The notes under the pieces are model-generated. The model was not told the origin of the DNA. It did not search any database and saw only the letters and a program-made list of their open reading frames with translations. 64,000 nt of DNA from Polytrichum commune (lineage: Eukaryota; Streptophyta; Polytrichopsida; Polytrichales; Polytrichaceae). Positions 4,203 through 62,850 of the stretch are shown here, piece by piece (position 1 is the stretch's first letter; the number at the start of each line of letters is the position of its first letter). The stretch lies in the NCBI GenBank assembly GCA_950295325.1, contig OX485804.1:61534533-61598532 (forward strand), in the 5' to 3' direction. Made by a program: the position numbers and the translations under genes.

Positions 4203-4373
4203 TACATAACTTTATTCATATCCGTAACAATGTTATGTGGGACTGATAATATTCCACATAATATTTCCGGATGTTTCCCACATTCAGTTCGAATGTGGGA
4301 AATATATGGGAATATCCCATGAAATATTGTCAGTCCCATAGCACATTATTATGGATCTGAATAATGTTATGTA
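4203..4373. mobile_element. foldback MITE, ~171 bp, long inverted repeats
   Basis: The left arm starting TACATAACTTTATTC and the reverse complement of the right arm, TACATAACATTATTC, stay alignable for about 60 bases. Both contain TGGGACTGA and AATATT blocks. A second hairpin sits in the middle, TTTCCCACATTC-AGTTC-GAATGTGGGAAA, with a perfect 12-bp stem. The whole element could therefore fold into one long hairpin. No clear target duplication is seen apart from a possible TA, so the superfamily is undetermined. Confidence 0.7.
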
Positions 4374-17445: not shown

Positions 17446-17985
17446 ATGCATTCTCGGCCACTAAATTCGGTGTTCCTTCTCCCTGGCCCAACTTGCTTGG
17501 CTTGTTGCTATTTTTTATTTTTTATTTCTTATTTCTTCTTCTTCTTCTTGACAATGTTATTACTCAACAGATGCACATGCTACACGACAAGGTGTACATG
17601 CCTTGCAAAACTAAGACCAAACATAATGGTAATAGAAGGTATTTCACAAGAACACACCAACCTAGTCTTTACCAAACCTCAACCTCAATGTCCAAATTAA
17701 AGAATTCACATTCACACACAGTAGATTTATGGACCAAGCTATCAAAACTAAACAAGACAAATATCACCTCCTCATTAAAAAATTTTTTAAAAAAACCATC
17801 CAACACTTCGCCATTCAAATACCTCCCACACCTAGTCCTCAACAAAAGAGAACTTGACAACAAACAAGAACCGAGAACCAATACAACCGTCCACATAAGG
17901 ACCCTACATCAAACTAACTAACACATGAATGAGCTCACTTACTGAAAGGATAGGCAGTAGATCCTACTACTTTAACCCTTAAAGG
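17446..17985 (+). pseudogene. LINE 3' fragment with nuclease-like domain, copy 1
   Basis: Decayed C-terminal part of a LINE polyprotein in three frames. One frame (17446-17700) gives CTCYTTRCTCLAKLRPN followed by IMVIEG, a CxCx4CxC cluster and an RPN at the KPD position. A second frame, starting near 17690, gives KEFTFTHSRF and then KTKQDKYHLLI. A third (17736-17921) gives LVLNKRELDNKQ. These match, in order, the copies at 25 kb, 51 kb and 62 kb. The downstream sequence to ~17985 weakly resembles the LINE 3' UTR at 51 kb. The coding strand is C/A rich. I infer a PD-(D/E)XK-type endonuclease end, inactive here through frameshifts. Confidence 0.6.
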
Positions 17986-24899: not shown

Positions 24900-25620
24900 T
24901 CGGCAATTGTCCATTTTAGAGCTTTGAACCCGCAATTGCCTCACCACACATGCAACGTCATTGTTCACCCCTTCCATATCGAGGAAGGAACCATGTCATC
25001 TAGCCCATCACACTCATGTGTGCGACTTGTGAGTTGTCAATGATGTATATTTCACTCAAAGCCCCAAACCAAACACAAACACCCATGACACCCTCCCACA
25101 CTCACACAATCCAATTTATTGAATTCACATACTGCCATGATAGATTCCCTAAACAAGCCCTCTCACATAAGCACACCAAATACGACCCAGTAATCAATAC
25201 CATACAAAACAATGGATGGAAAACCAACCCCCTCATCACCATCACAACCGGAGTAAGAGGAGCCATACACGAACACTCCATAAATAAACTGACCAACCTC
25301 AAAATTTTAAAATCCAACATCAAGACCCTCATGAAGAATATACACCGGAACGCCATCAAATATTTCACTTACCTTCTCCTAAAGAAAAGGAAACTAGAAA
25401 ATAAACAAACCTTTGTCCCACCCCCATAAGGCCCTATGATTACTAATGCAATGCACAAGCCCACCTCCCAAAGGAGGCATAACACCCCATGTTGCATTAT
25501 GAACTATTGTGATCAACATTTGGTAAACGGGCTCACATTCACGCTGGTATATAATACGGGCATAATTTTTTTCTTTTTTCCTTTTTCCTTTTTTTTCTTT
25601 GTCAATGCTACTTCATAATT
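24900..25620 (+). pseudogene. LINE 3' fragment with nuclease-like domain, copy 2
   Basis: The longest uninterrupted version on the plus strand (25016-25429, 137 codons). In order it shows CATCELS at the position of the second CxC pair, IEFTYCHDRFP, KHTKYDPVINTI, GWKTNPLITITTGVRGAIHEH and a basic LLLKKRKLENKQ end. The KPD motif seen in the 51-kb copy is not preserved. The 3' flank, 25430-25600, aligns with the LINE/SINE 3' domain (CCTCCCAAAGG, ATAACACCCC, AACGGGCTCACATTCACGC) and ends in a T/C-rich tail. Known REL-type LINEs place such a nuclease after the reverse transcriptase; the reverse transcriptase is absent here, as expected for 5' truncation. Confidence 0.7.
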
Positions 25621-31260: not shown

Positions 31261-33921
31261 CTATCTACTTATAGTTAAACTAATTGGCCAAAAATTCGGC
31301 TCACAAAGTCTTTGAAGGATTGTAAGGCATTTTGGATCCATCTTGTTTATTAGATGTTCTTTGCATATGTTGGGGAGTGGGCTTATTGCTATGTTAAATG
31401 CAAATATGTGTGTGTGGGGGGGGGGGGGGCAGGGGCGGGGTGATATGATGTGAGGAATTTGTTGTGTCGGAGTAGGTGTATTGAGGGGTTGTTTGTCCAT
31501 TGTGTAGTTTAGGTGATTGAGGTATGGGTCAAAGAGGTTGGCAAGGTGTGCACAATGTTGTTTTAGTTGTAGTGTATTTGGGGTAAAATATTGTTTTGGT
31601 CTTTGGTGATATTCTTTGGGAAGTCCATGTAGCAGTGTTGTAATTGGCCATGTATTATGTGCTAGCATGAGGCTCAAGTCGTAGAGGCGTTTGATGTATT
31701 TGGGGTTTTGGTGGTGAGGGTTTGTTATGGTATAATATGTGATAGTGATTATTGAAGTCATGAATAGTATGTACTTGGTGTGGCAAGACTTGTGGTTGAT
31801 GTGTGGGATATGAGTAGCTTGAGGTGGGTGCATATGTGTTAGTGGTTTATTATAAGGTTGTGGGTGAGTAATTTGTTGTTTATTTTTGTTGTATGGGTTG
31901 TGTGTATTGTTTGCTACTTTGTGTGTGGGATTTGTGTTTACTTCCATGGGGAGTGTATGGGATAGGGTTAATATGATGACTAGTATCTTCATGCTTGGGC
32001 ATGGGAGGTGAAACTTTGGTAGTTTAGGTGTTTTTATGGTTGTGGAGTATGAGTGGTGGTATGGTGTCTTGTATGATGTGCATTTATTTTGTTTATCCAT
32101 ATGCATTTAGGGATGATTATGAATATCTTTAGAGGTAATCTTAATGCACTTTTGTTGAACATGTATGTATAACCACATAGACATATAGTTATCCAATAGG
32201 CGATGTGGGGCTTGCACATTTCATTTATGAGGAGGGTAAGAAGACATTTAGTAGAGATGTGGATAAGAAGTGGCTCTATGCTAAGTAAGCTAGCCCTAGT
32301 AGTGACTCTAGTGGTATTCTATTTATTAGGAGGGTTGTAAGCTAGGTGAGGGATTTGAGGGTTAACATGACTATGTGGGTTGTGTGGCCTAGGGGCGCTT
32401 GGAGTTGGAGTGGGTGGCCTCCCATGTGTGTGGTGTTAATGAAAGTACTTGGACCTTAGTGATTTGTGGTGGCGAATCTTTGGTAGAGGCTTGGAAACAA
32501 TGTAGCAAGACTTTGCATTATCGCATGTATCTTTTGTTGAGGCATTTGAAATTTCATGGCCATGTTGCCAAGGATCTTGTGAATGGTGACGGCTTGGTGT
32601 ATGTTGGTGACAGTTGCCACATCTAATTTGGTGTTGGTGTTGTGGTTAATGGCTGTGGTGAATTGAGTGAACTTATTGTCAATTTTCTCTTCCCATTCTA
32701 GGATAGATTTACTGAAATATTTCTCCAAAAAAATGGGGTGATGTGGGCATTGCTCATGGCCTTAAGCTATTGGGCTATTGTTTCCCTCATCTACACTTGC
32801 ACTAACCAAATTGCAATCTTGGTGGGATTTGCTTCGTCGATGCTTCCTTTGTAAGGCATGAAATCTACTCTCCTCCCAAATATCTAAATGAATTTGTATA
32901 TCCATTCGAAGTAGGTGGCGGTGTTGAGGCATTGGATGTGGCACTATTCAGATTGCTTGTCCTCCACGTGGTTGACGATGCCTCCAAAGTTGAAACCTAC
33001 AATGTTTCTGTCGCCAAACTTGTTCTTGAGAATCATGACAATTGATGTTTGAGTCTCCTTTTGGGGAGGTTATTTGCCACAAGGGTGGTGTTAATGCAGA
33101 GCTCCACTAAGTCCACTTGCCTCCATGTCTCTTGTGCGGTTCACATGGATCTTCTCATGATGATATGCAAGCCCATAGTCCAAGATGGAATCTCGGGCTT
33201 CTTTGGATATGAGGGTACAAAAGACGAAGTCTTTAGTGGTGTCAGGCTTGGTTAGGCTCATGAACTTAGATTGCTTTCTTTCATAGTAACTCTTTTACTA
33301 ATGTGGGGAAGAGATTATGTGCATGAATATCTCTCAATGTATCCCCGTTGAGGTTTAGACGAAGGTTTCTAGCTTGTCACACGAAGAGTTGGAAGCTCTT
33401 ATCATTTCCTCCACTTCCAACTCTAAAGGAAAAACACGTGTACCTTGGCGAAGTGTGAAGTCCATCCACTTGTGGCTTCTAAAGGTGGATTTTGGTGAAC
33501 CTTGCCCAATTTTTGGTGATTGAGCTTGAGCCAATGTCCAAGGGATTGGAGTAATACATGCAAAGGGAGATATCCATCTTGCGAAGCCTTGCATATATGT
33601 ATTTCTTATGTCACTCTTAGTCATGGTCCTAAAGCCCATGTCGAACAAGATGGTGATGTGGTACCCCTTGAATAGTCCCGATTGCCGGTTGATCTTAAGA
33701 TGTGGGAGTTGTGTGAAATGGAAGTATTGACCCCGTACTGCATCTAGGCGTTCGTTGGGATAGAGCTTTTGAGAGACACTTGGGAAGGCATGCCTTAAAG
33801 TGAGAATACCCCACCCATACGAGTTAGTATAGGCACCATAGAAAGAGACACCTAGCCTGGACAAATTATTCATCTTCCTTAAACCCCTCCTAAGATGGCT
33901 AGAAAAACATGACATAGGCAA
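31261..33921 (-). pseudogene. decayed LINE 5' half (ORF1-like plus C/A-rich ORF)
   Basis: Read on the minus strand, a 188-codon frame (33921-33355) is followed, with shifts, by a frame at about 33040-32760 that is broken by only a few TAG codons. It includes KNKFGDRNIVGFNFGG and FGRRVDFMPYKGSIDEANP. A 90-codon frame with a helical, Gln-rich sequence (32728-32456) follows, then a 281-codon Pro/Thr/His-rich frame (32106-31261). The C/A-rich coding strand matches the LINE relics elsewhere in the window. I infer the first ORF and the start of the second ORF of the same LINE group. Direct homology cannot be shown here, because the other copies lack this part. Confidence 0.45.
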
Positions 33922-34029
33922 TCACTTTAACACCTTGCACACCAGGTGCAACACTATCACATTCGCAAATAAGACCTTGCCTTAGTGATTGACAATATCC
34001 ACAATATGGAACTACAAATCCACAAATTA

Positions 34030-35560
34030 CAAACATTTGCATAATGGTCCAACATGGACATGTAGCTCACCAAATGCACCATGAATGGATGGCCAAGCAA
34101 ATCCAACCTATGACTAAACAACTTTCAAGGATCATCCAAGCCCAAAATATCATATACAAAAGTAAATCTTCCCTACCCTTTTCCAAAACAAACCCTACGC
34201 AAACCTTGAAAATACATACAGCCTCGTCTCACTTATGGAAAATCCGAAAGCAAATAACCACCAACAAAGCCAAAAATCATTATAAACTACTAATGACCTC
34301 CCCTTAACAAGATCAAACAAAACATCAAGATCCTAGATATGGTAATCAAGCTAGGAATCACCTACACATACTATACAATACCGTTTTCTGAAATGGACAT
34401 TGAAAAAGTACATAATTCCTCAACAAACGCACCAAAAGGCATATGCAACTTCCCAAAAAGCACAACCAACATCTTCACCAACATTCACACAAAAGATTCC
34501 AACATAGAAACAATCTCATTACTACCAACTTATGTACATTGCAAAGGGCAACAAAATATTCAAGCACTTACTGATCAAATACAACTATGCACCATCTACC
34601 AAGGATTAACAAAATGCATATCCACTCACTGCGCCTCCACAAGCTAAATACCAAGTATGCAAAAGATTTTCTATTCCCCAAACCTTAATTATGCTAGAAA
34701 GAGAATTCAAAATCCATGTCAACATCACCGGCCATGCCTTCCCCATGAAAACCACTCCCCTACAAGATAAATGGCAAGCCAACCCCATATACACATCACT
34801 ACCCTTTGAAACCAAGGAAAACAAAAACAATACCTCAACAAATTCTAAATGTATAGCATCACCGCCCTCCAACATATACAAAACACAAGCCTTTCCGCTA
34901 TACTAATTCCACACGAATATTGAACAAATTACCACCACACCCCCAAACTCATACAAGAAAGCTCTTATAATAGCCAATATATTATTCTTGCCAACTCTCC
35001 CCCAACCAACACCATCCCAAATAGTTGACATGCCCATATACAACAACCATGACTTCACACACCCAAGTGACATACCAGAGCGATCCAAGAAATAGTTGAA
35101 ACCCAAACAACCATTAGAAAAGGACATGGGGTGCACAATCCATCAAAACACATTACCTCTTTTCTGTAAAGAATCAAATAAATATGCAAAGCAACAATAT
35201 AAAACATGTTTTTATATATATAAATAATAGATCAAGCAACAACACCTAAGGGCCAATGGAATAACACACAAGGTAACACACAAATATGTTGAGAAGAAGT
35301 TGAACTCCTCTTTAAAGACAACGTCATGCTAGAACGCAATCTACTCCACTTTACTAAATACAATAATGTTACATACACCAAACAAACCAAAGACAAATGC
35401 AAAAGTTGCCTCAATTACACCAATCCAAAGATTTGAAAAAGATTTGTCATTGCTTACAATAGGTTATGGGCCCACATCTTGCGCTCCAAATGGTCGAAAT
35501 CTTGTTGTCTACAGTCTGTTGTACAATTTCTTGATCTCTGATTACAAAGTTGTTTTTCCT
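34030..35560 (+). pseudogene. decayed LINE middle part (RT thumb/linker)
   Basis: Three plus frames follow each other (34044-34307, 34339-34647, 34691-34906). They read like the region after the catalytic core of a non-LTR reverse transcriptase: KLGITYTYYTIPFSE, then ICNFPKSTTNIFTNIH, then ISLLPTYVHCKGQQNIQAL and LCTIYQGLTK. Weaker pieces continue to about 35545. The core motifs of the polymerase and the downstream nuclease domain are missing. C/A-rich composition links it to the other LINE relics. It stands head to head with the ORF1-like part on the opposite strand. Confidence 0.5.
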
Positions 35561-38235: not shown

Positions 38236-38402
38236 AACAAGAAGAAGAAGAGGAAGAAGAACTACGTTCTCTAGTGGAGGCCGAAGTCAATAGATTGTCT
38301 ACTAGTAGAACGTATGTGGTCACATCCAAAAGGATAATGACGTTAGATGTAGAACCACGTTACCCTTTGCAGGGAGTAGACATTGTGTTAGTAATTGATA
38401 AC
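38236..38402 (-). mobile_element. LINE/SINE 3' tail, solitary truncated copy
   Basis: On the minus strand this aligns with 51043-50882: it starts TTACTAACA, carries CTCCCTGCAAAGGGT, and ends in a decayed terminal hairpin followed by a (TTC)n tail (GAAGAAG on the plus strand at 38242). No tRNA-like head and no LINE coding region precede it, so it is 5'-truncated and either parent is possible. Confidence 0.65.
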
Positions 38403-39533: not shown

Positions 39534-40759
39534 ATGGCATGTGAACAATCCAAATCCATTGTTAACTTGGAGCCCAGTGAAGATGTTGTTTTTGTTTTGT
39601 TTAATTTTGATGACAAAGTTTATCCGACAATTAAATTTTATGATGCAATGTCTTTTCCTTTTGAAAGTATAGCTCATGTTCCTTTAAGATCTCAATAGAT
39701 GTAAATTAAACCCTTACAAACCCTTTATACAAGGGTTGTTTGTTAGGGAGCTCTATCTCAAAATCCACCTTTGCACCCTCTTTCATCCTCTTCAGGGTTG
39801 AATATTGTTGAGGCATTGATACTAACGAAGTTTGGAAAAAGGTCTAAATTTGATCTTACAATTGTTGACTTTGACAACATTAATGTATATGATATCAAGT
39901 ACTTACAACCATGATTTGACAAAGATGTATAATTTGTGTTGTCCCCTATGTCGGTGGGACTTCCAAGCGCGTATGGTTGTTCCATAGATGGCATGGACAA
40001 GATGTGTAATGGACACCCTTGGTGCACAACAAAACAATTACAATCCATAATATTTTTGAATTCTCATCCAAGTGATTATTTGTGTCGGTCACCTCCAGTG
40101 TCCAAATGACAACTATGATTACATGTATTACAATTGGGATGTTTGCAACTATAGTGAATGGATTAGATCAACTCCTAATCCTTGAGAAATCTAGATTGAA
40201 TGTCTAGGGCTTGTATTCATCTAGGTGCATATGACCAACCTATTTCGAATGATACATGTGGTGAGTTATTAGACATGGCTTATCAATGTGTTGCCAAGGA
40301 AGTCATGAAAACACCTACTGTCAAGAACTTTGCAGTGGTAATGATAAGAACAAACAATTATAATTGGCAAACTACCTTATTAAATCTCCATCAAATGGTC
40401 AAGGCACTACATGGCAAGTATGTCTTTGAGGTGGTTATGGATAAATCCATGGTTATTGCCTCTCCAATTTGTCATAAATTTGTGTCAGGTTCAAAATCTT
40501 TTGTTCGTAGTTTGATGGGTACGATGGATAGCAGTATGGCACTCAAAGATCATTCAAGTTTCAATACATTCATGATAGGAAGTTACCAATGTGATCCAAA
40601 GACAAAGTATTTCTCTTCAAAATGTCAATGGACCTTCCAAGGAGTGGTGTGGATTTTGTGAAGTGTATGCAGGTCTTGAAGGGTTTCATGGTGGACAATG
40701 TACATATAATTGGAATGTGGTAGATAGATCTATATGGATGGCCACCGAAATCTACCCAT
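39534..40759 (+). pseudogene. SWIM-type transposase relic, N-terminal half
   Basis: The first decayed segment opens MACEQSKSIVNLEPSEDV and stays open for 55 codons. A second frame (about 39845-40020) reads VDFDNINVYDIKYLQP, then LPSAYGCSIDGMDKMCNGH with only two stops. A third open frame, 40200-40661, reads LLDMAYQCVAKEVMKTP and on to KFVSGSKSFVRSLMGTMDS. The coding texture then continues directly into the chromovirus insertion point and resumes at 46869. I infer one long protein, probably a Mutator-like transposase, because the far end carries a SWIM-type zinc finger and a second copy exists at 59-60.5 kb. No catalytic triad can be assigned. Confidence 0.55.
40755..40759. repeat. chromovirus target-site duplication, left
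   Basis: CCCAT, repeated at 46864-46868, is the 5-bp duplication typical of Ty3/gypsy integration. Confidence 0.9.
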
Positions 40760-40826
40760 TGTAATGTAACTAGAATTATTAAGGAATATTCTAACTACAT
40801 GTGCCAGTGTGTAAGCAGAAAAAAAT

Positions 40827-41298
40827 GAGAGCTAGACAACTCTCGGTGGAGAATGAATGGAAAGGAGTAAGACAACTCCAGATTGACAACATGTGCACTG
40901 GAGTTAGACAGCTCCGCATTTAGTGCATTGGAACTAGACCATTCCAAGTGAGAACAAGTGCACATGAGTTAGACAACTCTCGATGAGGTGCACAGGAGTT
41001 AGACCACTCCATGGATAAAGCTAGTTGGAATTAGACAGTTCCAACTAGAAGATTGACTAGTTGGAATTAGACAATTCCAACTAAGAGAAAGGTTGGATGA
41101 ACCAAGTTGGAATTAGACAGTTCCAACTGGAATGAAGGATGAATGTATTTAGTTGGAATTAGACAGTTCCAACTAGAAAGAAGAATGGATGAATCCAATT
41201 GGAATTAGACAGTTCCAATTGGAAGAATGGAATTGAGATAAGAGATGAAAGAAGGTTCTAGAAGAACCATAGATAGAAGATTCATAGTAGAACTATGA
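40827..41298 (+). repeat. array of eleven related hairpins in the LTR
   Basis: Eleven palindromic units share a central (T/A)AGAC(A/C) loop with changing stems: 40827-40844, 40864-40879, 40900-40915, 40928-40947, 40966-40979, 40995-41010, 41021-41048, 41058-41083, 41105-41128, 41150-41175, 41195-41222. Stem cores change in concert (GGAG/CTCC in some, GGAA/TTCC in others), and stems grow from 4-5 bp upstream to 9-11 bp downstream. Two unrelated hairpins follow at 41254-41268 and 41282-41298. The same array lies in the 3' LTR at +5301. Confidence 0.9.
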
Positions 41299-41325
41299 GA
41301 TAGAGCTATGAATAGAATACTTTTA

Positions 41326-41341
41326 CTATATGTAAATATAG
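41326..41341 (+). promoter_or_regulatory. LTR TATA-like promoter element
   Basis: CTATATGTAAATATAG lies downstream of the hairpin array, within a larger imperfect inverted repeat (TACTTTTAC ... GTAAAAGTA, 41319-41353). Its position fits the U3/R boundary. The transcription start is not determined. Confidence 0.45.
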
Positions 41342-41477
41342 AAAGTAAAAGTAGTGCTTCGGCATAAAAGGAAGCTCGGGGGAGGAGAGAGCATCTTTTT
41401 TGTCTCTCTCCTATGGTCGGGTGGTAGAGCTTCGTTGACCAAACTTTATTTGGTTGCGGTTTGTACTTAGAGGAAGA

Positions 41478-41483
41478 AATAAA
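41478..41483 (+). promoter_or_regulatory. LTR polyadenylation signal
   Basis: AATAAA, about 150 bp after the TATA-like element and ~80 bp before the LTR end; the functional copy would be in the 3' LTR at 46779-46784. Confidence 0.5.
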
Positions 41484-41565
41484 ATTGGTGTTGGTTTCAA
41501 TTCTTTACTTTGAGATTTTGTGGTCAAGACACAAATTGCCAACCGGTGAGAGGTTCGTAACAAAT

Positions 41566-41580
41566 TGGTATCAGAGCATG
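41566..41580 (+). promoter_or_regulatory. primer-binding site, initiator tRNA-Met
   Basis: TGGTATCAGAGC begins three bases after the LTR end and is the standard complement of the plant initiator tRNA-Met 3' end. The sequence runs straight into the ATG at 41578, so the first possible gag codon abuts the primer site and the element has almost no separate leader. Confidence 0.95.
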
Positions 41581-41898
41581 TTAGATGCCATGGAGAGTTT
41601 GGAAGAAAGAATTGTGAGAGCGGTGTTGATAGTATTGAGAGAAAACCAAGGTATTCCATTACAAGAGGTCCCACCTCTTCCTGGGGATCCTCCTCCCAAT
41701 TCTCCACCTCCTCCAAGAGAGAATCATGTAGCTACACCACTTGGCTCGAGAGAGGAGGAGTCTAGTTCAACATCATCTCCAAGAAGGCTAGCTCATGGAG
41801 AAGTGGATATTTTGAAAGACGTAAAAAAAATCCAATTAAGCCTAGTTTTGGAGGCCGAAACTGCAAACCAGAAGAAGTCATGTCGTTCATTTCAATAG
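41578..41898 (+). CDS. gag: gag N-terminal segment, out of frame with the rest
   Basis: From ATG 41578 (or 41590) the frame encodes [17 protein letters not shown], then a Pro-rich linker ([15 protein letters not shown]) and an acidic, Ser-rich stretch. After DILKDVKK the sense continues in the -1 frame, while this frame runs on with unrelated residues to a stop at 41898. The switch maps to an A8 run at 41823-41830, which is also a canonical slippery heptamer (A AAA AAA). Chromoviruses normally have one continuous gag-pol frame. The change may be an inactivating 1-bp length mutation, an assembly error in a homopolymer, or programmed -1 slippage. Confidence 0.8.
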
Positions 41899-44800
41899 TG
41901 GAGGATTTCTTCCCTTCAAAATACATTGATGCAGATAAAATCAAAGTCACAGTAATTTTCTTGAAGGACAAAGTTCGGGTTTGGTTTGACACACTGAAGA
42001 GGGACCGAGAAAACAGGGGACTGGGACCTATTGCAGCATGGAGTGAGTTCAAAGAACTATTTCTTCACCAATTTCTTCCTAGCAACTACGGTGAAGACAT
42101 GCGCCAAAAGTTATACGACTTGAAACAAGGAAGTCTATCAGTAACCCAATTCAAGTTAGAGTTCGATAAACACATTGTTTACTTTCCCAATTGGGGTGAA
42201 AGTGACAGAATTGAATTCTTTGTCCGCAACTTAAAGGATTCAATAAGGTTCAAAATTAGTGCTCATAACTTACAGACTTTAGATAAAACTTATAATTTGG
42301 CTATGAACTTTGAGAGAGAAGTCAATAGCAGGATGGAGAGGACAAAAGGTCAATTGGGAAAAAGAACTTCAGAATTTAAATACCCTGCCAATCAAAGCTC
42401 CAAGTTTGCGAAATTTTCCAAGAGTTCTAAACCATCTCAATTTTCAAAGTTCAACCAAGGAAACAAGACGTTGATGCTGAGCAAGGAAGAGCAAGAGGAG
42501 CACGTCAAGAAGGGTTTATGCTTCAGATGTCACAAACCTGGGCACCGGAATTTTGAATGCCCAACAGTCAAGAGGAAGATAGCAGCAATCGAAGTAGAAC
42601 ACGAAGACGGTGATGAGTCAGCTGGTGAGCCAACCAAGGAAGGAGTTCCGAGCATCTCAACAGCAGTCATGAACATGGAGGTGGAACAAGAGCCAACAAT
42701 GCTACAAATCAAAGGATTTCTAAATTCTACCTTTTCTTCGATGATCTTAATTGACTCTGGCAGCACTCATAACATGATGTCAGTTTCATTTGCTCATAAG
42801 TTAGGACTTCCCTTAATTCCTATCAAACCATGTTCAGTATGGTTGCCGAACAATCAACCAAGTTTTATTACTCACCGCGTGTTGAGAGTGCCTGTAAACA
42901 TCCAAGGAGTGGACACTGAAGCGGATTTTGAGGTTTGGGATGGAGCGCGATATGAGGTGATACTAGAGATGGCGTGGCTTAAAGAAGTCGATGCATGGAT
43001 CGCATGCAAAGAAGGAGAAGTGCACGGGAAGCTTCTGAACGGTAAATCTTTTTCTATCAAAGGTAAGAGATCTTTGCCGAACACTCCTACTCTTTCACAT
43101 CTACAAATGAAAAGATGTGGTAGAAAAGGTCATCAAGTATTTTTGATACATATAAGCGAAGTTGAGAATGAATCTAAAGATGACGCTTTGAGTAATAACG
43201 GAGTGAAGATATTCTTGGATGATTTTAAAGATTTATTTCCTGAAGAGTTAAATGAGATACCACCTACTAGAGAGGTTGATCATGCTATTGACCTCATTGC
43301 CAATGCTGCTCCTGTGGCTAAGGCACCATATCGTCATTCTTTAGCTCAAAATGTTGAGCTTAAAAATCAATTAAAGGATTTGTTAAACAAAGGATATATT
43401 AGGCCAAGTAAATCACCTTGGGGAGCTCCTGTTCTTTTTACTAAGAAGAAGGATGGATCTTTAAGATTGTGTGTAGATTATCGGGGTCTCAACAAACTAA
43501 CTATAAAGAACAAGTTTCCTTTGCCCCGCGTTGATGATATTTTTGATCATCTATATGGATCAAAAATATTTTCCAAAATAGATTTGAGAAGTGGATATCA
43601 CCAAATTCGAATAAAAGAATCTGATATTGCGAAAACTGGATTTAGGTCATGTTTGGGTCATTACGAGTATGTGGTAATGCCTTTTGGTCTTACAAATGCT
43701 CCTGCTACATTTATGACTTTAATGAATTCAATATTTCGTGATTATTTGGGTAAGTTTGTACTTGTGTTTATTGATGATATCCTTATATATTCTAAAAGTG
43801 AGGAAGAACACAAACAACACCTTAAACAAGTTTTTGAAATTTTGAGAGAACATAAGTTATACGCTAAACTAAGTAAATGTGTTTTCTTTACTTCGCGTGT
43901 TGAGTTTCTGGGTCACGTTATCTCTGATGAGGGAGTCTCCGTTGACCCTAGAAAGGTTACGGCCGTTGCTGAGTGGCCAATACCAAAAGATAAGACTGAG
44001 GTTAGAAGTTTTTTAGGTCTTGCAAGCTATTATAGAAGATTTGTAAAAGGATTTTCTAAAATAACTGCGCCTATGACCAACTTGCTAAAAGGCAAAAGTA
44101 ATGCGATAGATTGGACCCCGGAATGTGATTCAAGTTTTCAGACTTTAAAATCATTGTTAACCCAAACTCCTGTTTTAACTATTATGGATCCTTTGAAAGG
44201 AAACATAATACTATGTACCGACGCTAGCGATTTAACTATTGGTGCAGTTTTGATGCAAGATAAGAAAATAATTGCTTACGAATCTCGTAAATTGAATTCT
44301 GCTGAGTTGAATTATCCGGTACATGAAAAGGAATTACTAGCAGTAATCCATTCGCTAAAGGTTTGGAGACATTACTTACTAGGGGTAAGGTTTAAGATTC
44401 AAACAGACCATGAGTCTTTAAAATATTTGTCAACTCAACCTCATTTGAGTAGAAGACAATGTAGATGGATGGAATTTTTACAAGAATTTGATTTTGACAT
44501 AGAGTATATTAAAGGAAAAGAAAATGTGGTTGCTGACGCTTTGTCTAGAAGACCGTTAGCAAATGCCATCTCATGCATTAGAAATCCTTTAATGGATGAA
44601 ATTAAAGGACATTATGCTACTGATGATTTCTTTAATCTTTCATTTGAAAGTTTGTCTAAGGAAGCTAGGACCGCAGATGAAATTGAAAAATTTAAATGTT
44701 TTGAAGTGAAAGATGAAATTTTATATTATAATGGTAAAGTTTGTGTTCCCAAGTTTGGAGAACACAGACTCAACATTATAAATAACCTTCATGACATTCC

Positions 44801-46046
44801 AATAGCATGTCATCCAGGGTTTCAAAAGACTTACATGGCGGTTAAGCGTCATTACTATTGGCCAGGAATGAAAAAAGATATTAAAGAATATGTTGAGAGA
44901 TGTTTAAAATGTCAAGTCACTAAAACAGAACAAGTGAAGGACCCTGGATTGCTCCAACCACTTGGTGTGCCTAACTTAAAGTTTGAATCAGTCAGTATGG
45001 ATTTCATTGTAGGATTGCCAAAGACTCAAAGAAATTTTGATAGTATCATGGTAGTTGTGGATAGGTTGACAAAGATTGCTCATTTTATTCCCACAGTTAC
45101 TATTGTTACTGCTTATGGAGTTGCTGAACTATTCATGAGAGAAATTTTTAAGCATCATGGAATTCCACGAGAAATTATAAGTGATAGAGATCGTAAGTTT
45201 GTGAGTGAGTTTTGGACTACTCTATTTAAATTGTGTGGAACTAAGATTAAGTTAAGCAGTGCATATCATCCTGAGACGGATGGACAAACTGAACGGACAA
45301 ACAGAACTCTTGAGGATATGTTAAGGATGTATGTTGGCCAGAGACAACAATCATGGGATAAGTGGTTGCATATGATTGAATTTGCTTATAATGATCATAT
45401 TCATAGTAGTATTGGGGTAAGTCCATTTTATGTTCTACATGGTCAGGAATGTAGAACCCCAATTACACTTTCTACTCCTAATACGAGATTTGAAAGCATT
45501 AATGCTATGATTAGGGAGATGAATGAAATTAGAGAAACGGCAAAGTTGGCTATGAAAAGTGCTCAGGATAGAGCTAAGCATTATGCTGATAACAAAAGAA
45601 TTTTTCGTGAATTTGAAGTTGGTGATAAGGTGTTTTTAAAGGTAGCACCTAATCGATCTGGACTTAAACTTGGCAAGTCAAGAAAGTTATCACCTAGATT
45701 TTGTGGTCCATTTGAAATTTTGAAACGGATAGGCAAAGTAGCTTATGAGTTAAAATTACCAGAGGATTGGAAGATCCATAATGTTTTTCATGTGGGTTTA
45801 TTAAGAAAATATGTGTCTGATCCTAACCATATTTTGCCTGACCTTCCCAAAGTTGCTCCAGAGGGAGAACTTCTTGCAGAACCTGAGAAGATTTTGAAAA
45901 TAGAAAATCAATATCTAAGGAATAAGACTTTCTGTAGATTTTATGTGAAGTGGAAAGATTATCCTGAAGAAGAAGCTTCTTGGGAAAGAGAAGTTGATTT
46001 CAGAAAGGACTATCCTAATTTTGTCATTGAGGACAATGACTTTTAA
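41880..46046 (+). CDS. gag-pol: gag-pol polyprotein with chromodomain
   Basis: 1,388 codons from the first ATG; the frame is open from 41764. Residue positions: gag capsid region 1-150; zinc knuckle C214, C217, H222, C227; protease DSGS at 292; reverse transcriptase with [10 protein letters not shown] (D632, D633); RNase H acidic residues D781, E818, D843, D886; integrase zinc finger H971, H978, C1008, C1011 and catalytic D1041, D1102, E1138 (D,D35E); GPF motif at 1276-1278; chromodomain from ~1334 with [16 protein letters not shown]. All catalytic residues are present and there are no internal stops. The first aromatic cage residue of HP1-type chromodomains is not evident, as in group II plant chromodomains. 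Chromodomains in this family direct integration to heterochromatin. The early-gag register change would limit expression unless bypassed. Confidence 0.96.
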
Positions 46047-46047
46047 T

Positions 46048-46059
46048 GGAAGGGGGAGA
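46048..46059 (+). promoter_or_regulatory. polypurine tract
   Basis: GGAAGGGGGAGA directly after the gag-pol stop and one base before the 3' LTR; it primes plus-strand DNA synthesis in this class. Confidence 0.93.
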
Positions 46060-46060
46060 T

Positions 46061-46863
46061 TGTAATGTAACTAGAATTATTAAGGAATATTCTAACTACA
46101 TGTGCCAGTGTGTAAGCAGAAAAAAATGAGAGCTAGACAACTCTCGGTGGAGAATGAATGGAAAGGAGTAAGACAACTCCAGATTGACAACATGTGCACT
46201 GGAGTTAGACAGCTCCGCATTTAGTGCATTGGAACTAGACCATTCCAAGTGAGAACAAGTGCACATGAGTTAGACAACTCTCGATGAGGTGCACAGGAGT
46301 TAGACCACTCCATGGATAAAGCTAGTTGGAATTAGACAGTTCCAACTAGAAGATTGACTAGTTGGAATTAGACAATTCCAACTAAGAGAAAGGTTGGATG
46401 AACCAAGTTGGAATTAGACAGTTCCAACTGGAATGAAGGATGAATGTATTTAGTTGGAATTAGACAGTTCCAACTAGAAAGAAGAATGGATGAATCCAAT
46501 TGGAATTAGACAGTTCCAATTGGAAGAATGGAATTGAGATAAGAGATGAAAGAAGGTTCTAGAAGAACCATAGATAGAAGATTCATAGTAGAACTATGAG
46601 ATAGAGCTATGAATAGAATACTTTTACTATATGTAAATATAGAAAGTAAAAGTAGTGCTTCGGCATAAAAGGAAGCTCGGGGGAGGAGAGAGCATCTTTT
46701 TTGTCTCTCTCCTATGGTCGGGTGGTAGAGCTTCGTTGACCAAACTTTATTTGGTTGCGGTTTGTACTTAGAGGAAGAAATAAAATTGGTGTTGGTTTCA
46801 ATTCTTTACTTTGAGATTTTGTGGTCAAGACACAAATTGCCAACCGGTGAGAGGTTCGTAATA
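46061..46863 (+). repeat. 3' LTR of the chromovirus
   Basis: Matches 40760-41562 base for base except at 46862, where C is T, so the element ends TA instead of CA. The hairpin array lies at 46128-46599, and the AATAAA signal at 46779-46784. Confidence 0.97.
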
Positions 46864-49165: not shown

Positions 49166-50880
49166 CACTCTAGTGAACAAATCAACCGCCACCGATCTAG
49201 CTACTTTTGAAATGCACGAGGTATATTAGATGCACAAATCATACAAATTCAAATTTAGATACACATAGTACATGGGATTCCTTAGGAAAGTATATTTTGG
49301 CCACTTACATACATGAACCTTACCTACACGCTATGTCAAAATAATGATAGGGACACATGGCCTCACCTCCTATCTGCATTTGCAAACTAACACATTAAAT
49401 GACTAGAATAGCTAGACATAACAAAGTTGTTCATTATGTAGCCCAAACGCAACAAGCCATCAAATTCCCTAGATTTTTCACACTAAGTGAACTTCGGGAC
49501 CGTCAAAAGCCAACCCTTGGACACAACAATCCCACATTGGCTACCCCCATGCATATGTAGCTCCACTCCATGTCATTTCCATGCCATATGTAGCTCCACG
49601 TCTTAATCAAACACCTATATTGATTGGTGTGTGATTATGTGAGGAACAAAGAACAAACACTGTAAAGACACATGTTTGAAAGAGATTGGACTACGTCTTC
49701 AAATGTTATTAACCACTCCACACTTGATAGTGAACATAATTGGGAAGTCTTATGTATCAAGTTAAGGAATCACCATATATATATGTACTTCTGATAACCA
49801 TTACTAAAAAGGGGAGGACCAATTTTCACTCCTAATTTTGGTGATACTTCATCATATATTTTCTAATGCAAACACTTGAAGTTTTGAAGTGTATACCGAA
49901 TCGGTAACTTAGAAATTGGAGAACATAAAATAAAAAGCCGAATAACACCTGCATGCCATTCCACCAAATTGTGGCAATAGATTCCACTTTAACTGCAAAA
50001 TACCAAACCCGTGTTATTGGTTGGATAGTTACTTAATTTTCAAATTACAATTAATTTTGTGTCTTCTATTGATCTGATTTACATCTTGCAATTTGTTTTG
50101 CATAAACAAATTTTTTGATGAAACACCAACAAGAATTGTAACAAAAACCAAAGTAAAAAAATGGATCTCGCAAATATTTCAAGGCTCATGGTTATCGAAA
50201 GTGCATGTTTGTTGCTTCAAATGTATGACAACGTATGTCATGTTGGTTTGACGTTACGTGTTGGTTTTGGATATGCTGACCTAAGTCAAACTACAAAAAG
50301 AAGAAAATATGGGGATTATGGTTTCACAAATAAGAGCCTATGAGTTATAGTGGAATTGGGCATTTCACTAGAATACATTATAAGACTCCTAAACGAATAC
50401 CTCAAATCTTGCTCATACTATTATAATCTTTCACATGAATCAAATCTACAAAGGATTGAAGTGTGAACCACATGGTTCAACAAAGTCAAGATGGTAAGCT
50501 AGAACATTAAGGGATTCAAGCATGAGATATTCTAGATAGGATTGGAAAAACTTTAAGTTTGCAATCTTCATGTGGCATTCTGATTTCAATGTCTTCATGT
50601 GTTAATCTACCTATTATCTTGTTCTATGTCATGCTACGTAACTTTATGTCTTGAAATATCATCCTTGCTATATATGTCAATCATTTTTTTGACTTTCCAT
50701 TTACAAATTTTCATGACTACTATGGAACACACTAATTAATTTTATTTTTTAAATTATGTTTCCTTAGGCATTCATGCAACATGTTTTGAAAGTTGATGTG
50801 TTGGTAGCAAATATCCTTACATTTTCATTGTAATTTTGACATCTCCAATTTTGTTCAACTTGTATTGCAACTGGCCCAAC
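49166..50880. other. unclassified intergenic DNA
   Basis: A diverged piece of family E/F (CACTTGATAGTGAACA) lies at 49721-49760. No gene is seen; the 60-codon frame at 50161-50343 is unrecognised. Confidence 0.35.
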
Positions 50881-50881
50881 C

Positions 50882-51043
50882 AAGAAGAAGAAGAAGAAGA
50901 AGAAGAACTCCGGTCCCTACTAGGGACCGGAGTGAATAAAGTGTCTGTTCGTAGGACAACCGTGGCCGTACCCCAGGGTAGCGGCGTTGGGTGTAATACT
51001 ACTTCACCCTTTGCAGGGAGTAGACACTATGTTAGTAACTGAT
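50882..51043 (-). mobile_element. LINE 3'-terminal domain with perfect hairpin
   Basis: Read on the minus strand: TTACTAACATAGTGTC, CTCCCTGCAAAGGGTG, AGTAGTATTACACCC, CGAACAGACACTTTATTCAC, then a perfect 11-bp hairpin (arms 50905-50915 and 50921-50931) and a (TTC)n tail (GAA repeats 50884-50904 on the plus strand). The same order of blocks ends the SINE at 23325-23708. It lies downstream of the nuclease-like ORF of the LINE copy on the same strand. Confidence 0.8.
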
Positions 51044-51061
51044 GTTTTAACCGGTTAAACC

Positions 51062-51076
51062 GGGGGGGGGGGGGGG
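51062..51076. repeat. G15 tract
   Basis: Longest of the nine G or C runs of ten or more in the window; it lies inside the LINE 3' region. Confidence 0.9.
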
Positions 51077-51179
51077 AAGGGGGTGTGTAGGGTGCATGGG
51101 TTTTAATTTAGAATTTTCTGTGGGTCTTGCTACTTTGTTTGGGACGAGAAGCGTGCGTATTTGTTTGGAGTATAAGTGG

Positions 51180-51438
51180 TGGTTGGTTGTATAGTTGGTC
51201 GCCAAGTCATGGTTCCAAGGTTGGTTGGATAAGGACGTGCGTGTTATATTAATACGGTCCGGGTTCGATTCGCGTTGAATCCGTTTGAGCGTGTTAGTGC
51301 AATACACTGTGACTTGGTGCTGCAAGTGAGTTAATCATAGGCAGGAAAGTTATGCCAACCAGTCGGCTACTCCCCGCCTTTCTGAGCTATAGGTGGTAAC
51401 TTAATAACTAGTGGTATGACCACTACCCCTCTCTAATT
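51180..51438 (+). mobile_element. possible second tRNA-related SINE, antisense in LINE
   Basis: GGTTCGATTCG (51262-51272) matches the Pol III B box, and TTGGTTGGATAAGG ~40 bp upstream could be an A box. The sequence cannot be folded into a proper tRNA, because the T-stem does not pair. A hairpin, TAGTGGT-ATG-ACCACTA, lies near 51410-51426. It lies in the LINE 3' region in the opposite orientation, which fits a nested SINE. No target duplication is found. Confidence 0.35.
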
Positions 51439-52035
51439 TTAATTATGATTTTGTAGGTTTGTGATGGGTTGTCTATTTTCTATTCGTCTTTTGTGGATTA
51501 GTATTGAGTGTGCATATTGTATGGCGATTATGTTGATTTGTTGAAATGTGTGCCTAATTTGTGTTGTGGGAAGTTTGAGTTGTGTTTCTAGTGCCTTCAT
51601 CGAGGGGATATGAGTTGTGGCTCTAGCGCCGGATGCTAGTACTATAAGTGGGGCAACCTTCCATCCTTTTGTAGTGAGGGTGTTAATAAGTGGTTGATAT
51701 TTCATGGTTTTTCTTTCTAGTGTTTCGGCCGAGAACCTGTCATTACAATATGTGAATTCTATGTATTGTATTGTGACTTCTTGTGTGGGTGCTTCTAGTG
51801 GGGGGGAATTATATGGATGACCGATGACACATAATATGTCGGGTTTGAGCTGAGCATTGCAATGACATCGTTGGGTGTTGCATGGGCATGGTAATAGCCA
51901 TGTAGGTACTGTATTTTCTTGTGGAGAATCGTTGTGTGTTCCTGCGTTCATAAGTGTATAATATCTAGTAAGTTTGTTTGAGATGAGAAGTTTACGGATT
52001 TCCCATACCATAGAGGATTGGCAACTCAACTTCAT
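51439..52035 (-). pseudogene. LINE C-terminal ORF with nuclease-like domain, best copy
   Basis: 198 codons open on the minus strand. Residues in order: basic start; PCPCNTQRCHCNAQLKPD (CxCx4CxC then KPD); EVTIQYIEFTYCNDRF; ERKTMKYQPLINTL; GWKVAPLIVLASGARATTH; and a basic end, HKRRIENRQP. KPD, the Glu of EFT and the Lys of KxxKY are the kind of residues expected in a PD-(D/E)XK active site, and a Cys-rich knuckle followed by (K/R)PD is the layout of the restriction-like endonuclease in R2-type LINEs. Here KPD and EFT are 26 residues apart, more than in R2. All upstream ORFs are lost by 5' truncation. The frame itself has no stop or shift. Confidence 0.7.
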
Positions 52036-53622
52036 GGATATGTTTGTTTATTGTCCACATCATTCCCCAAAAACTAATTCTTGCTCAAATGTATGAATAA
52101 AGGATTGGTGGATAAAATTTCAAGGATGAATGTTAAACATTTGACCAAGATGAATGATGCAATCGGTTTTACAAATCTCAAAATTTCATAAAACACTCGA
52201 AACATGTTTGCGGGATAGTTTACCCATCATATTATGCACAAAGATGTTATTGAATAAAGTATTACTCTATTGACATTATGATCCTTGTTGTATAAACTCC
52301 ATCATAATATTACACATCGTATGAACACTCCCTCCAACCATTGTGCATATGATATCAAATTTGGAGAAATAACACCATCACAATACAAAAGATTGCTACG
52401 TTAAGGGAAATCGTCTTATTGTGAGTGGCCATTCTATTAATTGGGGGGGGGGGGTAGGGCAACTTAGTTGAGTTTTTTTTAAATAAAATAAAATATTGGG
52501 GTTGCTTTGTTATTTTCCCTTGGCCCTTAAACTTGCACACCATCAAAGTTATTTGTAAGTCCTTAAAAGAGTGATGTGACCATGGGTTTGATCCTTCTTT
52601 GAGAAAGTTTTCTATTAAGAGCCCGTTAGCTCATTGTGCATTGGAGCCTATTTTGAAAATTGCATGAAACTTTTGGGATCTCGTATTTCCACCTCAAAAT
52701 TTTGAGGATCTAAAATAGGGCATGCACACGAGACCCAACCTAAATTATGAAAGCGGCATGTGCAAGGCTAGCCTAGCCCACCCATCCTAATCAGATAATT
52801 AGCAACAGCCGGATTTTAATATCATGACAACACTTTTTGTGTATGGTAATTTAAGCGCTAAGAAAACTTGAATGACTTTGTAATAATCCTCGTAAACTCA
52901 TGGTTTAGGACTTCACCCATGCTTTCATTTGCTTTACTTTATGGATGCAACACTCTATTGACGGAACAAAAACTCAACGTATGAGGAAGTGAAGATCGGC
53001 CGGAACAAGGTATTTCACCACATCTTTAAAATTATCCAAAAAGTACTAAGGTGGTTGTTGTTGTTGTTTTTGTTTTTTGGATTTTGGATTTGAGATGCCT
53101 ATAGGGCTCCGGCTTAGAGCACTCGAACTTCAAAGGGATAATGCATTGTCAGCCATGCCCGTAAGTGTGTGTGTGTGTGTGCCCGCAACATTGTACTTAT
53201 GGTATGTGAGGAGTTGTTGGTGATGATATCTCATCCTTATCCTTGGTGGCCATTGGGCCCGCGACCAAGTGTTGATACCATTTTGCTTTATACGCACACG
53301 TTTGGCATGAAGGACAACCCCCTCAAAAAGGCAAACGTTCCCGCATTTGCCATGGGGTTTGACCCCCGGGCCCCACCCCATCCCTTTATGTTTGTTGGCC
53401 ATCACAAACTTCGCCACGCTCGACGCTCCTCCTTTTGGACGGGTCCCACCTTCACTTCATTTGAAGGGTTCCTATTTTTCTTTGTCTTTGTTGCCTTTCA
53501 ATGCGATCAACAACCTTGACAATTATTTTTCAAATGACGGGTTGAGAGAATCTTCATCTTTCACACAAGGTTTGAGATCACATCGTGTTTCTTCAAGTGT
53601 AAATGAGAGAAGTTTGAACTTC
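52036..53622. other. unclassified intergenic DNA
   Basis: A G12 run lies at 52443-52454, (GTT)n at 53053-53075, and (GT)8 at 53166-53181. Frames at 53130-53640 are unrecognised. Confidence 0.4.
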
Positions 53623-55849: not shown

Positions 55850-58520
55850 GTAGGTCATTTGGAAAGCACTTGGAAAAACTTGCCACAAATTTTAGGGCAC
55901 AAAAATATCGGAAATTGTATGATAAAAATGTGACTACAACTTCTATTTTTTGAGAGGCGCTTTTGATTTTTTAAGCTTTGGAAAGACTGCCGTAGTCCGA
56001 CTATTGAGTCAATTGAGAAAACACTTGATTGAAAAATGCTGAAATTGAATCGTAACATTTCCAAAATGTTGGAAACGTTTAGTCTTGGAACAATCACTAC
56101 AATTTCCAAAAAAAAAATCGACCCACCCACCCAACCCAACCCCCCAACAACAACAATAATAATACCATGGGAACCACTATTGAGGTCATCTGGGAAGCTA
56201 TTGAGACAAAATGCCAAAAATTTGACTTGAAATTAAAGGGTCCCAAAATGTGGGCCATTGTAATTTCAAAATGGTGACTACAGTTTCCAAATTTTGGGGG
56301 TGCCCCCTTTGACTTCTGAAACCATGAAAAGCAATGCGGGTTCATTTGGAAAGCACTTGAAGAATAAAAGTTAAAATTTGGATTAAATTGTAGGGGTTAC
56401 AAAAAAGCTCATCTCAAATTTATCACAACAATTTCCAGTTTTGATTGCATCTTATTTATATCCTAAACCTTGGAAAGCTCAAACCACCACCGGGTGATTT
56501 CCTTGAAAAAGCACTTGAAAACGAAATTTCAAATTAAATTAGGAGACCCACACTCATATTTGTTTTAGTCTCGTGGTCATGTATGTAATTTTCAAACTAT
56601 AGGGTACTCCATTCGATTTCCCAACCAACACTAGTTGAAAACTATGCGAAACAAAAACTACAACCGTTTTCCCATTGTGGTTTTTTTGACTGTCCTGATT
56701 TGCAGTCACTAAACAATTGCAGAGTTGTATTTTTTAGTTTACCAACTGTCATTTTAGGAATTTGGGGGCTTGTAACATACCGTTGGAAATGTATTGAAAA
56801 ACTTTTCCAACGGTGTCTTACACGCCTTGCAATGTTTTGAATTACAGTCACAAAACGAAAAAGAAAAGTTTGCAGTCATTTAGCAATTGCAAGTCAGGGT
56901 GGTCAAAAGAACTACAATGGGAAAACGACTGCGGATCATTTTTTGCATAGTTTTCTACTAGTGCAAGGAAAAAGCTGTCGAATTCATTTGGAAAGAACTT
57001 GAAAAACACATGTTGAAACATGGGTCAAATTTGAAGGATCTCAAATGCTAAACTTTTTTTTTAAATGGAACTGTGACTTCATTTTCCTAATTTCGAGGTG
57101 GTTCTGTTTAGCTCTAAACCATGGAAAACACTATGAATTCAATTAGGAAAGCACTAAATTTATTAAAAAAAAAACAAAAAAAAACGCACATCTTGAAGTT
57201 TGGATCAGATTTTAAGGGTTCCAAAATGGTGGAAATTTTCAAATTCAGAACCATGATCTCAATGTCCGATACCTTGGGTGTCCTTATTTGATTCCCATGA
57301 CCATGTAAAACATTGCTCCATTCATTGCAAAGCACTTGAAAAAATATGGTTTAGATTTTGGATCAAATTTTAAAGGGTCCCAAAATTCTTGGGAAGTTTT
57401 TTGACGTGGAAACATGACTTCAATTTCCAATTTCTAAGGTGCCTCCATTTGATTTCCAAAACCATGGAAAACAATGCCCATTTCATGTGGAAAGCACTTG
57501 AAAAGTACATGTTAAAAGTTGGCTCAAATCTAATTTGCAAAGCCTTTGAAAAACCCCACATTAAATTGTGGATCAAGTTTTCAGGGGTCCCAAAATGTTG
57601 GAAATTTTTACATTCAAAATCGTGACTTCAATTTCCATTGTTTTGATGGTGACCATTTCATTTGCTAAACACTTGAAAATCACATGTTAAATTCCGGATC
57701 AAGTAGTGAAAATTTTGAGAATCTTGGAACGTTCTAGATTCGGGACCTTGACGTCATTATCCAATTTTTAGGGTGGCTCTATTTGAGGTCTAGAACCATT
57801 GCCAAGTTTGCGTGGAAAACACTTGGAAAATGCATGGTAAAATTTGGATGGAATTCTTAAGGGTCCCAAATGTTGCAATTTTCCATATTTGGAACTTTGA
57901 ATTTGATTTCTAATTTCTAGGGTGTTTTTGTTCAATTTCAAAAACCATGGAAAGCATTGCCCATTTTATTTGCAAAGCTTTTGAAAAAAAAAAACCCATG
58001 TTAGTTTTTGAAGTTGTAAGAGTCCCAAAATGTTGGAATTGTTAAAAATTGGGTTTCATGAGTTCAATGTATGGGTTCCAGTGTGCAACCATTCTCACTA
58101 AACCCTAGATTCAATAGTATTTTCGAGTTCAATTGGAAAGCATTCGTAAACGTTGAACAAAGGTTGGATCGAATTTTAGGGGTTCCAAATAGTTTTGGTC
58201 GTTGTATCGTGACTTTAACTTAAAATAAGTATGCAACTTATTTTAACCACCACCACAACTATGCAAAGGATTTGAATGTTGGAATGTTTGGAACCATGAC
58301 TTCAACTTCCAATTCCTAGGGTGCCCCCAAAGCATGGAAAGCATTCCCCATGTCATGTAGCAAGCATTTGCAGAACAAATGTTACATTTTGGATCCAAGT
58401 CTATGATTTCCAAATTTTGAAGACCGGCTCCTCGGTCCCATTGAGTTCCAAAACCTTGGAAAGCATTGTCAAGGTCACCGGTGAAGCACTTGAAAAAAAT
58501 ATATTAAAAAGGGTTTAAAT
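55850..58520. repeat. degenerate satellite array, ~158-bp monomer
   Basis: Monomers are marked by TTTGGAAAGCACTTGAAAA-like words at about 55863, 56348, 56511, 56991, 57147, 57330, 57488, 57666, 57817, 57976, 58137, 58360 and 58474, mostly 150-180 bp apart. Each also holds GGGTCCCAAAATGTTGGAA, ACCATGACTTCAATTTCC and ATTTCTAGGGTGCC variants. Reconstructed unit length is near 158 bp. Monomers are strongly diverged, so the array is old. It is interrupted by a CACTA miniature element. Confidence 0.8.
56629..56963. mobile_element. CACTA (EnSpm) miniature element, 335 bp
   Basis: Ends CACTAGTTGAAAA and (inverted) CACTAGTAGAAAA, the hallmark of the CACTA superfamily, flanked by CAA on both sides (56626-56628, 56964-56966) as the expected 3-bp duplication. 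Subterminal arms of ~90 bp also pair, including CGTTTTCCCATTGT on both sides. No transposase is present. The surrounding satellite continues on either side. Confidence 0.88.
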
Positions 58521-62434: not shown

Positions 62435-62850
62435 GCAAGATCATTGAATTTACATTATGCCAAGATCAAGACCCCACTACTACCGCCTAACAAAAATAAA
62501 AATAAAATACCAACCACTAGTTGACATACTAGAAGACGCTAAATTGTATGTAACGATGGTTATCCTCACAATAGGCACACGAAGTAGCATCCACATGAAC
62601 AACATCACTAAGCTCTTTGAACAATGAGACATCCCTCTAATGCCCATACATGCATGCATACAACAAATATACATGATAGCTATCAAGCACCTCGCTCTAC
62701 TATTGCTCAAAAAACGTAAATTGGAAAACCATCAACAATCGATATTCCCCACAAAAGCAAAAAGCAAAACCACATACATACATCAAAACCTCAAGACTGA
62801 ATCTTACAACATAATGCCCAAACCAAATCAACTAACTCCATATTAAGGGA
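62435..62850 (+). pseudogene. LINE 3' fragment with nuclease-like domain, copy 4
   Basis: Plus strand: IIEFTLCQDQDP at 62440, then (after stops) KYQPLVDIL, TIGTRSSIHMNNITKLFEQ and, in the frame 62640-62846, LLLKKRKLENHQQ. All line up with the copies at 25 kb and 51 kb. The most decayed of the four: in-frame stops follow the EFT motif, and the Cys cluster and KPD are not visible. Confidence 0.6.

Follow-up and report, generated by a model that had tools for sequence, protein, structure and literature searches.

Fragments of a probable Dualen/RandI-type LINE with two endonuclease-like domains, 2A-like motifs and a PCIF1-like domain in a genome with plant-type telomeres

A 5′-truncated LINE copy lies among divergent relatives

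The window, i.e., the whole 64,000-bp stretch that we analyzed (G000:C2:61534533-61598532), contains a minus-strand frame (51439-52047) that is open for 202 residues. This frame encodes the motifs CPCNTQRCHC, LKPD, IEFTYCNDRF, KTMKY and GWKVAPLI..ASGARA, followed by a basic tail, HKRRIENRQ. Its first 12-13 codons are supplied by flanking DNA; the remainder belongs to a 5′-truncated LINE insertion that ends in a restriction-like endonuclease (REL)-like domain, a 3′ UTR and a tail. The features of this insertion and of its relatives in the window are as follows.

50882..52009, minus strand: 5′-truncated LINE insertion (3′ end of ORF2, 3′ UTR and tail), from blastn against the long copy L044
51439..52009, minus strand: C-terminal coding part with the CxCx4CxC cluster and REL-like domain (KPD, EFTYCNDRF, KxxKY, GAR), from motifs, tblastn and alignment
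50907..50933, minus strand: 3′-terminal hairpin CTCCGGTCCCTAGTAGGGACCGGAG, a palindrome of the same kind as in the fetched copies
50882..50907, minus strand: (TTC)n tail, an AAG repeat in the window, with the same tail in other copies
38236..38399, minus strand: second 3′-end remnant (tail and 3′ UTR), 74% against 50882-51043
17572..17794, plus strand: divergent broken remnant with CxCx4CxC, RPN, EFTFTHSRF and KQDKY in two frames, from tblastn
25064..25408, plus strand: divergent REL-like remnant, 41-45% against the long copies
49295..49585, plus strand: divergent remnant of the zinc region preceding the REL-like domain, 31%, E 1e-4
62437..62735, plus strand: divergent broken REL-like remnant in two frames with one stop, from tblastn
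32387..33801, minus strand: ORF1 remnant of a divergent relative, 35-44%, best E 7e-65
33869..34962, plus strand: RT C-terminal and following region, remnant of a divergent relative, 28%, E 4e-24

The original prediction described four decayed copies of the domain in the window, all sharing one ordered series of motifs. The insertion at 51.7 kb is not decayed, since it is 98.5% identical to L044 over 1121 bp (blastn), and its positions 52008-51442 match residues 1007-1195 of ORF2_E44C at 97.9%; it is a 5′-truncated copy. The other three predicted copies are indeed relatives. Specifically, a tblastn search of the window with the 202-residue frame returned plus-strand matches at 31-48% identity, more than chance, at 25091-25408 (43%, E 1e-24), 62487-62735 (33%, E 1e-9) and 17572-17794 (two frames, E 7e-7), together with 49487-49585 (E 7e-6), a locus absent from that prediction. 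The complete motif series is found only in the 51.7-kb copy, and the others hold parts of it. In the 17.6-kb copy, the Cys cluster and the three motifs after it are present and the GW..PLI block is unrecognizable; the 25-kb frame begins downstream of the Cys/KPD part; and the 62-kb copy retains EFTLCQDQD, KIKY, GTRS and a basic tail, spread over two frames with a stop. A motif scan of the window found no RT motif beside any of the REL-like copies.

Several further observations concern the surroundings of these copies. The ORF1 remnant at 32387-33801 (minus) abuts the RT-region remnant at 33869-34962 (plus), both from divergent relatives, and a frame at 31261-32106 (minus) resembles, by eye, the stretch that follows the last 2A-like motif of the long copies described below; the layout of 31261-34962 resembles a twin-priming inversion. 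A gypsy element occupies 40758-46861, where identical 803-bp direct repeats (LTRs) flank a 1426-residue frame with, by eye, a chromodomain-like stretch at its end. Long inverted repeats with short or no spacers and arms 71-77% identical lie at 38838-39466, 56629-56963 and 4203-4373 and are possibly small DNA transposons. A run of about 14 C (sense strand) lies at 51060-51077, close to where the compared part of the 3′ UTR begins, and recurs in the 3′ UTR of most fetched copies, E42 being without it.

Long copies join two endonuclease-like domains in one ORF2

To place the domain in a longer element, we searched the 407.8-Mb assembly (64 contigs) with the 202-residue frame. The search gave 4847 first-look candidates, of which 150 were scored; all 150 match at E ≤ 1.8e-83, and many sit in frames far longer than the REL-like domain. 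From these we chose 14 long copies (L039-L052), mainly for their long open frames, and they are thus not a random sample. The long copies carry an ORF1 and an ORF2 whose order is 2A-like motifs, APE, RT, PCIF1-like domain, RNase H, CCHC, CxCx4CxC cluster and REL-like domain. As originally predicted, therefore, the domain follows a reverse transcriptase in a LINE.

The clearest case is L047, in which a 648-residue frame and a 2169-residue frame are separated by a single in-frame stop. The APE, RT and REL-like domain all lie within the 2169-residue frame, with the APE motifs ETKL, GDFNRD and SDHLPI, the RT motifs QGDTLSPYLF and AYADD, and the REL-like domain at its end. None of the 14 fetched copies has an ORF2 that is open throughout, L047 with its one stop being the best. 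Profile searches agree with these assignments. Of the three frames covering the APE region, two score above the Exo_endo_phos_2 (Pfam) cut-off of 27.4 bits (L047, 29.9 bits; L042, 37.1 bits), and L050 falls just below it (27.1 bits). RVT_1 matches at 2.5e-26 in L047 and 1.6e-27 in L039, and RNase_H (PF00075) at 8e-15 to 1e-14 in all three frames holding that region (L047, 8.3e-15). The expectation that an APE would be absent, with a REL in its place, is thus contradicted: an APE and a REL-like domain are both present. As a side result, viral contigs scanned with the element's RT gave five pattern matches, none of which was confirmed.

Between the RT and RNase H, PCIF1_WW (PF12237) scores 36.9-38.1 bits against a cut-off of 31.1 in three of three frames (L047, 1.6e-9), and up to 40.6 bits over all searches. 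The PCIF1 structure 6irx aligns with this region at E 0.019, with its NPPF falling on HPHT, and all five copies compared have GYAHPH unchanged. This replacement of NPPF by HPHT makes canonical methyl transfer by the domain unlikely, judging from the motif; at a guess, it might bind the cap or the CTD.

All five enzyme-like domains are strongly constrained, with dN/dS of 0.04-0.12. Over nine pairs drawn from five copies, the values were 0.06-0.10 for APE, 0.05-0.07 for RT, 0.07-0.12 for the PCIF1-like domain, 0.04-0.10 for RNase H and 0.07-0.10 for the REL-like domain, all far below 1 and rough because dS is near saturation. The same five copies retain the signature residues of APE, RT and RNase H (GDFN, SDH, YADD, YTDGS, RAE, FTD). 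Eight of the 14 copies, located on different chromosomes, have frames of at least 1520 residues, long enough to span everything from the RT to the end of the REL-like domain. The copies can be aligned over the whole of the final 7.6 kb, at ~97-99% inside one subfamily and 79-82% across subfamilies, with an insertion in L052. Compared with L039 over this length, L040, L042, L044 and L048 represent at least four further subfamilies at 79-82% identity; since all of these are present with long frames, several lineages of the element seem to have been active side by side.

The 3′ end is shared, while the 5′ part varies

In all 14 fetched copies, the element ends with a hairpin followed by (TTC)n. 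The hairpin of five departs from the commonest hairpin sequence, and the consensus fold of the 14 has 46 pairs, for which covariation carries no weight because the copies are too alike.

Integration was assessed in the ten 5′-truncated copies among L009-L038 that have a placeable break. Target duplications of 8-12 bp are found in about half of these. Between the two flanks of a copy, the longest common word measured 14, 13, 12, 12 and 11 bp in five copies, 9 in a sixth and 5-7 in the remaining four, against a mean of 5.6 and a maximum of 9 in 90 mismatched flank pairs. Five of the ten therefore exceed every mismatched pair, and the sixth ties their maximum. No clear target duplication was found in the window copy (longest word 7, non-adjacent) or in three other truncated copies. 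The flanks of the ten copies are unrelated to one another, which implies that there is no single insertion target.

Four of the 14 long copies were extended upstream; in the other ten, the fetched stretch stops short of the ORF2 start, so that the counts given here for the 5′ part and the 2A-like motifs are lower bounds. In L054, a 1186-residue frame without a family match lies upstream of ORF2 and represents ORF1; its homologues are found in L056 (50% over 662 columns) and, in shorter form, in L055 (56-73%). Three copies have both ORFs; in two of them, E50 and E48, the start of ORF2 and the stop of ORF1 overlap as ATGAATAG, and E39 differs. A copia element occupies the expected place of ORF1 in L047; immediately upstream of that copy, L053 1207-4500 (minus) holds a copia polyprotein frame (RVT_2, 1.9e-55).

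The exact motif D(V/I)ExNPGP is present in at least 7 of the 14 copies (E39, E41, E43, E45, E47, E48 and E51). All seven match exactly the StopGo/2A core, (D/G/C/N)(V/I)ExNPGP, as given in PMC12846837. Six further copies have NPGP-type variants alone, several with Q, H or Y instead of E, and these variants may be inactive. E52 has no 2A-like motif, the stretch being missing or beyond the fetched part. There are three motifs per copy in E39, E43 and E47 and two in most others. Downstream of the last 2A, ten copies are ~97-99% identical as far as the 3′ end, while the 2A stretch and ORF1 show 65-97% identity and an arrangement that differs among copies. This difference between a conserved 3′ part and a variable, rearranged 5′ part suggests that 5′ modules have been exchanged.

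The C-terminal domain resembles the REL of R2

The original prediction proposed a PD-(D/E)XK endonuclease by analogy with R2. For comparison, we used the R2 structures 8gh6, 9dou and 9nl2, whose chains carry RHN, KPD and KxxKY after the CCHC in the same order as the C-terminal domain of the element. Substitutions in two of these motifs, KPD/A and K/ARNKY, are named as endonuclease mutants of R2Bm in PMC6895275. When the element C-terminus was aligned with the R2 REL by hhalign, KPD fell on KPD and KTMKY on KRNKY, so that P-D, E and K-x-x-K-Y are in register. The probability was ~1%. In the first comparison, the observed score was 17.87 and the highest of 100 shuffle scores 21.66; when the divergent window fragments were added, 2 of 300 column shuffles scored as high as the observed alignment. 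Run across the whole of ORF2, the R2 REL profile gave a sole match, 2033-2131, which is the C-terminal domain.

Conservation was computed on an alignment (A1) of 14 sequences less than 95% identical, from which L020 and L030 were left out and to which two window frames were added. E225, K241, K244 and Y245 are invariant in A1, one row of which is just 39% identical, and K196-P197-D198 is at least 90% conserved. In Pfam, NCBIfam and PDB, neither single sequences nor profiles of the C-terminus gave a match. The AlphaFold model of the domain has a mean pLDDT of 49.8, with 57-76 in most of 201-290 and ~40 around KPD. It predicts a helix (118-151), strands (156-162, 198-206, 220-228), helices (235-254), a strand (263-267) and a helix (275-285). 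In this low-confidence model, D198 begins one strand, E225 lies in the next, and K241-Y245 fall in a broken helix that is followed by a further strand. This order fits a PD-(D/E)XK core with D198 and E225 on adjacent predicted strands.

Altogether, the R2 motifs, their register, the position and the low-confidence fold make it likely that the C-terminal domain is a REL, a fold that is supported, short of proof.

A probable two-ORF element with two nucleases

We consider it probable (about 0.8) that the fragments in the window derive from a two-ORF LINE of the Dualen/RandI type, abundant and recently active, whose ORF2 would encode a polyprotein of ~2800 residues with a 2A-divided N-terminus, APE, RT, PCIF1-like domain, RNase H, CCHC, CxCx4CxC cluster and R2-type REL. 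We infer its biochemical activities, including which nuclease cuts which strand, from the domains. In the proposed cycle, translation of ORF2 would start at the overlap with the ORF1 stop (ATGAATAG), and ribosome skipping at the 2A motifs would release the catalytic portion separately from the short peptides of the N-terminus. A protein of the element would then recognize the 3′ hairpin of the element RNA. One endonuclease would nick the target and the RT would copy the RNA from this nick (target-primed reverse transcription), after which the second strand would be cut 8-12 bp from the first nick.

The most serious rival is an APE-type LINE whose C-terminal zinc domain binds nucleic acid and looks like the R2 endonuclease without cutting. 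The lack of a significant endonuclease sequence match for the C-terminus, the weak hhalign score and the low-confidence model all speak for such a domain. However, P-D, E and K-x-x-K-Y stand in the register of R2 KPD, D/E and KRNKY; none of the 14 sequences of A1 departs from E225, K241, K244 or Y245, and K196-P197-D198 shows 90% conservation or more; and the predicted order fits a PD-(D/E)XK core in a domain whose constraint resembles that of the others. We therefore regard a non-cutting domain as rather unlikely.

Much less probable still are two readings that would separate the nucleases. An R2-clade element with a REL only, which the R2-like lineage of the original prediction would amount to, could draw on the RT, whose best solved match is R2 (1.8e-25, compared with 6.9e-14 for the L1-like 8c8j), and on the REL-like C-terminus. 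Yet the APE shares one frame with the RT and the REL-like domain in L047, which refutes this reading for that copy, and the RNase H, the separate ORF1 and the unrelated insertion sites also stand against it, leaving it very improbable. A chimera, produced by misassembly or by nested insertions that set an APE-RT LINE beside an unrelated REL gene, is conceivable in a genome where elements do nest, as with the copia element upstream of L047, but is refuted by independent long copies: eight of the 14, each with a frame of at least 1520 residues, come from different chromosomes, and the alignment of the final 7.6 kb runs through its whole length, both inside one subfamily (~97-99%) and across subfamilies (79-82%). 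This is the least credible of the alternatives.

Beyond the two-ORF, dual-nuclease reading, we put forward tentatively, and with more doubt than belief, that LINEs with two endonucleases form a flourishing branch in plants or their near streptophyte relatives. APE and REL would there split the two strand cuts, tandem 2A motifs would free several short peptides from one polyprotein, and the catalytically altered PCIF1-like domain would hold the capped RNA 5′ end for completion of integration. If true, this would be a natural use of 2A skipping in plants and an extant intermediate linking the REL and APE types of LINE. According to PMC4640811, LINEs are thought to have had a REL first and to have swapped it later for an APE, with Dualen, which has both, cited as the intermediate. 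An abundant family in a plant-type genome in which both domains are constrained would offer many natural copies to test why both are kept and which strand each cuts. A recent survey (PMC12846837) reports that StopGo works in plants and found no plant virus that uses it naturally; the 2A-like motifs therefore matter, since they would be a natural case from a plant element. In addition, a constrained PCIF1-like domain without NPPF hints at an unexplored tie between LINE integration and the mRNA cap. Annotation pipelines that see 3′ ends alone will misname such copies.

Comparison with known systems

The combination of domains proposed here is, in part, best known from green algae, and Dualen/RandI LINEs reportedly go back to Kojima and Fujiwara (2005). 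The (CCCTAAA)n telomere type marks green plants in the wide sense; it was found at four of seven large-contig starts, the other three starting with N, which places the host among these plants. Dualen is described as combining an APE and a restriction-like endonuclease in one element, plus RNase H (PMC4640811); Dualen/RandI LINEs are also treated in PMC8226300, and SINEs paired with RandI/Dualen have (ATT)n and (CTTT)n tails (PMC3747384). The element shares with them the APE N-terminal to the RT, the RNase H and a short-repeat tail, here (TTC)n, and its REL-like C-terminus would probably correspond to their restriction-like endonuclease. Because it has both an APE and a REL-like domain, it resembles Dualen/RandI rather than an R2-like lineage.

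R2 lacks an APE, consists of a single ORF and inserts into 28S (in part PMC6895275). RT similarity, and a CCHC followed by a C-terminal domain with RHN, KPD and KxxKY, are common to R2 and the element, whereas the latter has both nucleases, two ORFs and varied sites; membership of the R2 clade is ruled out by the APE and by the differing flanks of the ten truncated copies, which show no single 28S site.

Similarity to PCIF1 lies in the PF12237 match, and the difference in HPHT at the NPPF catalytic motif. Plant L1 elements have two ORFs, an APE and an RT, and are not known to have a REL. The two ORFs, the APE and the RT, and an RNase H that PMC4640811 also ascribes to plant L1, are shared with the element, which differs in its REL-like C-terminus and in having (TTC)n in place of poly(A); this tail, present in 14 of 14 copies, rules out membership of plant L1.

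Non-LTR retrotransposons bearing 2A (Odon 2013, as cited in PMC12846837) likewise have D(V/I)ExNPGP within a LINE polyprotein, but the element has two or three motifs per copy, Q/H/Y variants and a host genome with plant-type telomeres. Neither a dual-endonuclease LINE in land plants nor a PCIF1 domain in a retrotransposon was found in titles and abstract openings of the open-access literature, a scope that makes this absence weak. APE, REL, RNase H and a short-repeat tail together are, on the domains predicted here, the Dualen/RandI plan. To this plan as described, the element would add 2A-like motifs, a PCIF1-like domain and a host genome with plant-type telomeres, and a Dualen-type LINE with 2A motifs and an HPHT PCIF1-like domain in such a genome looks like a new variant.
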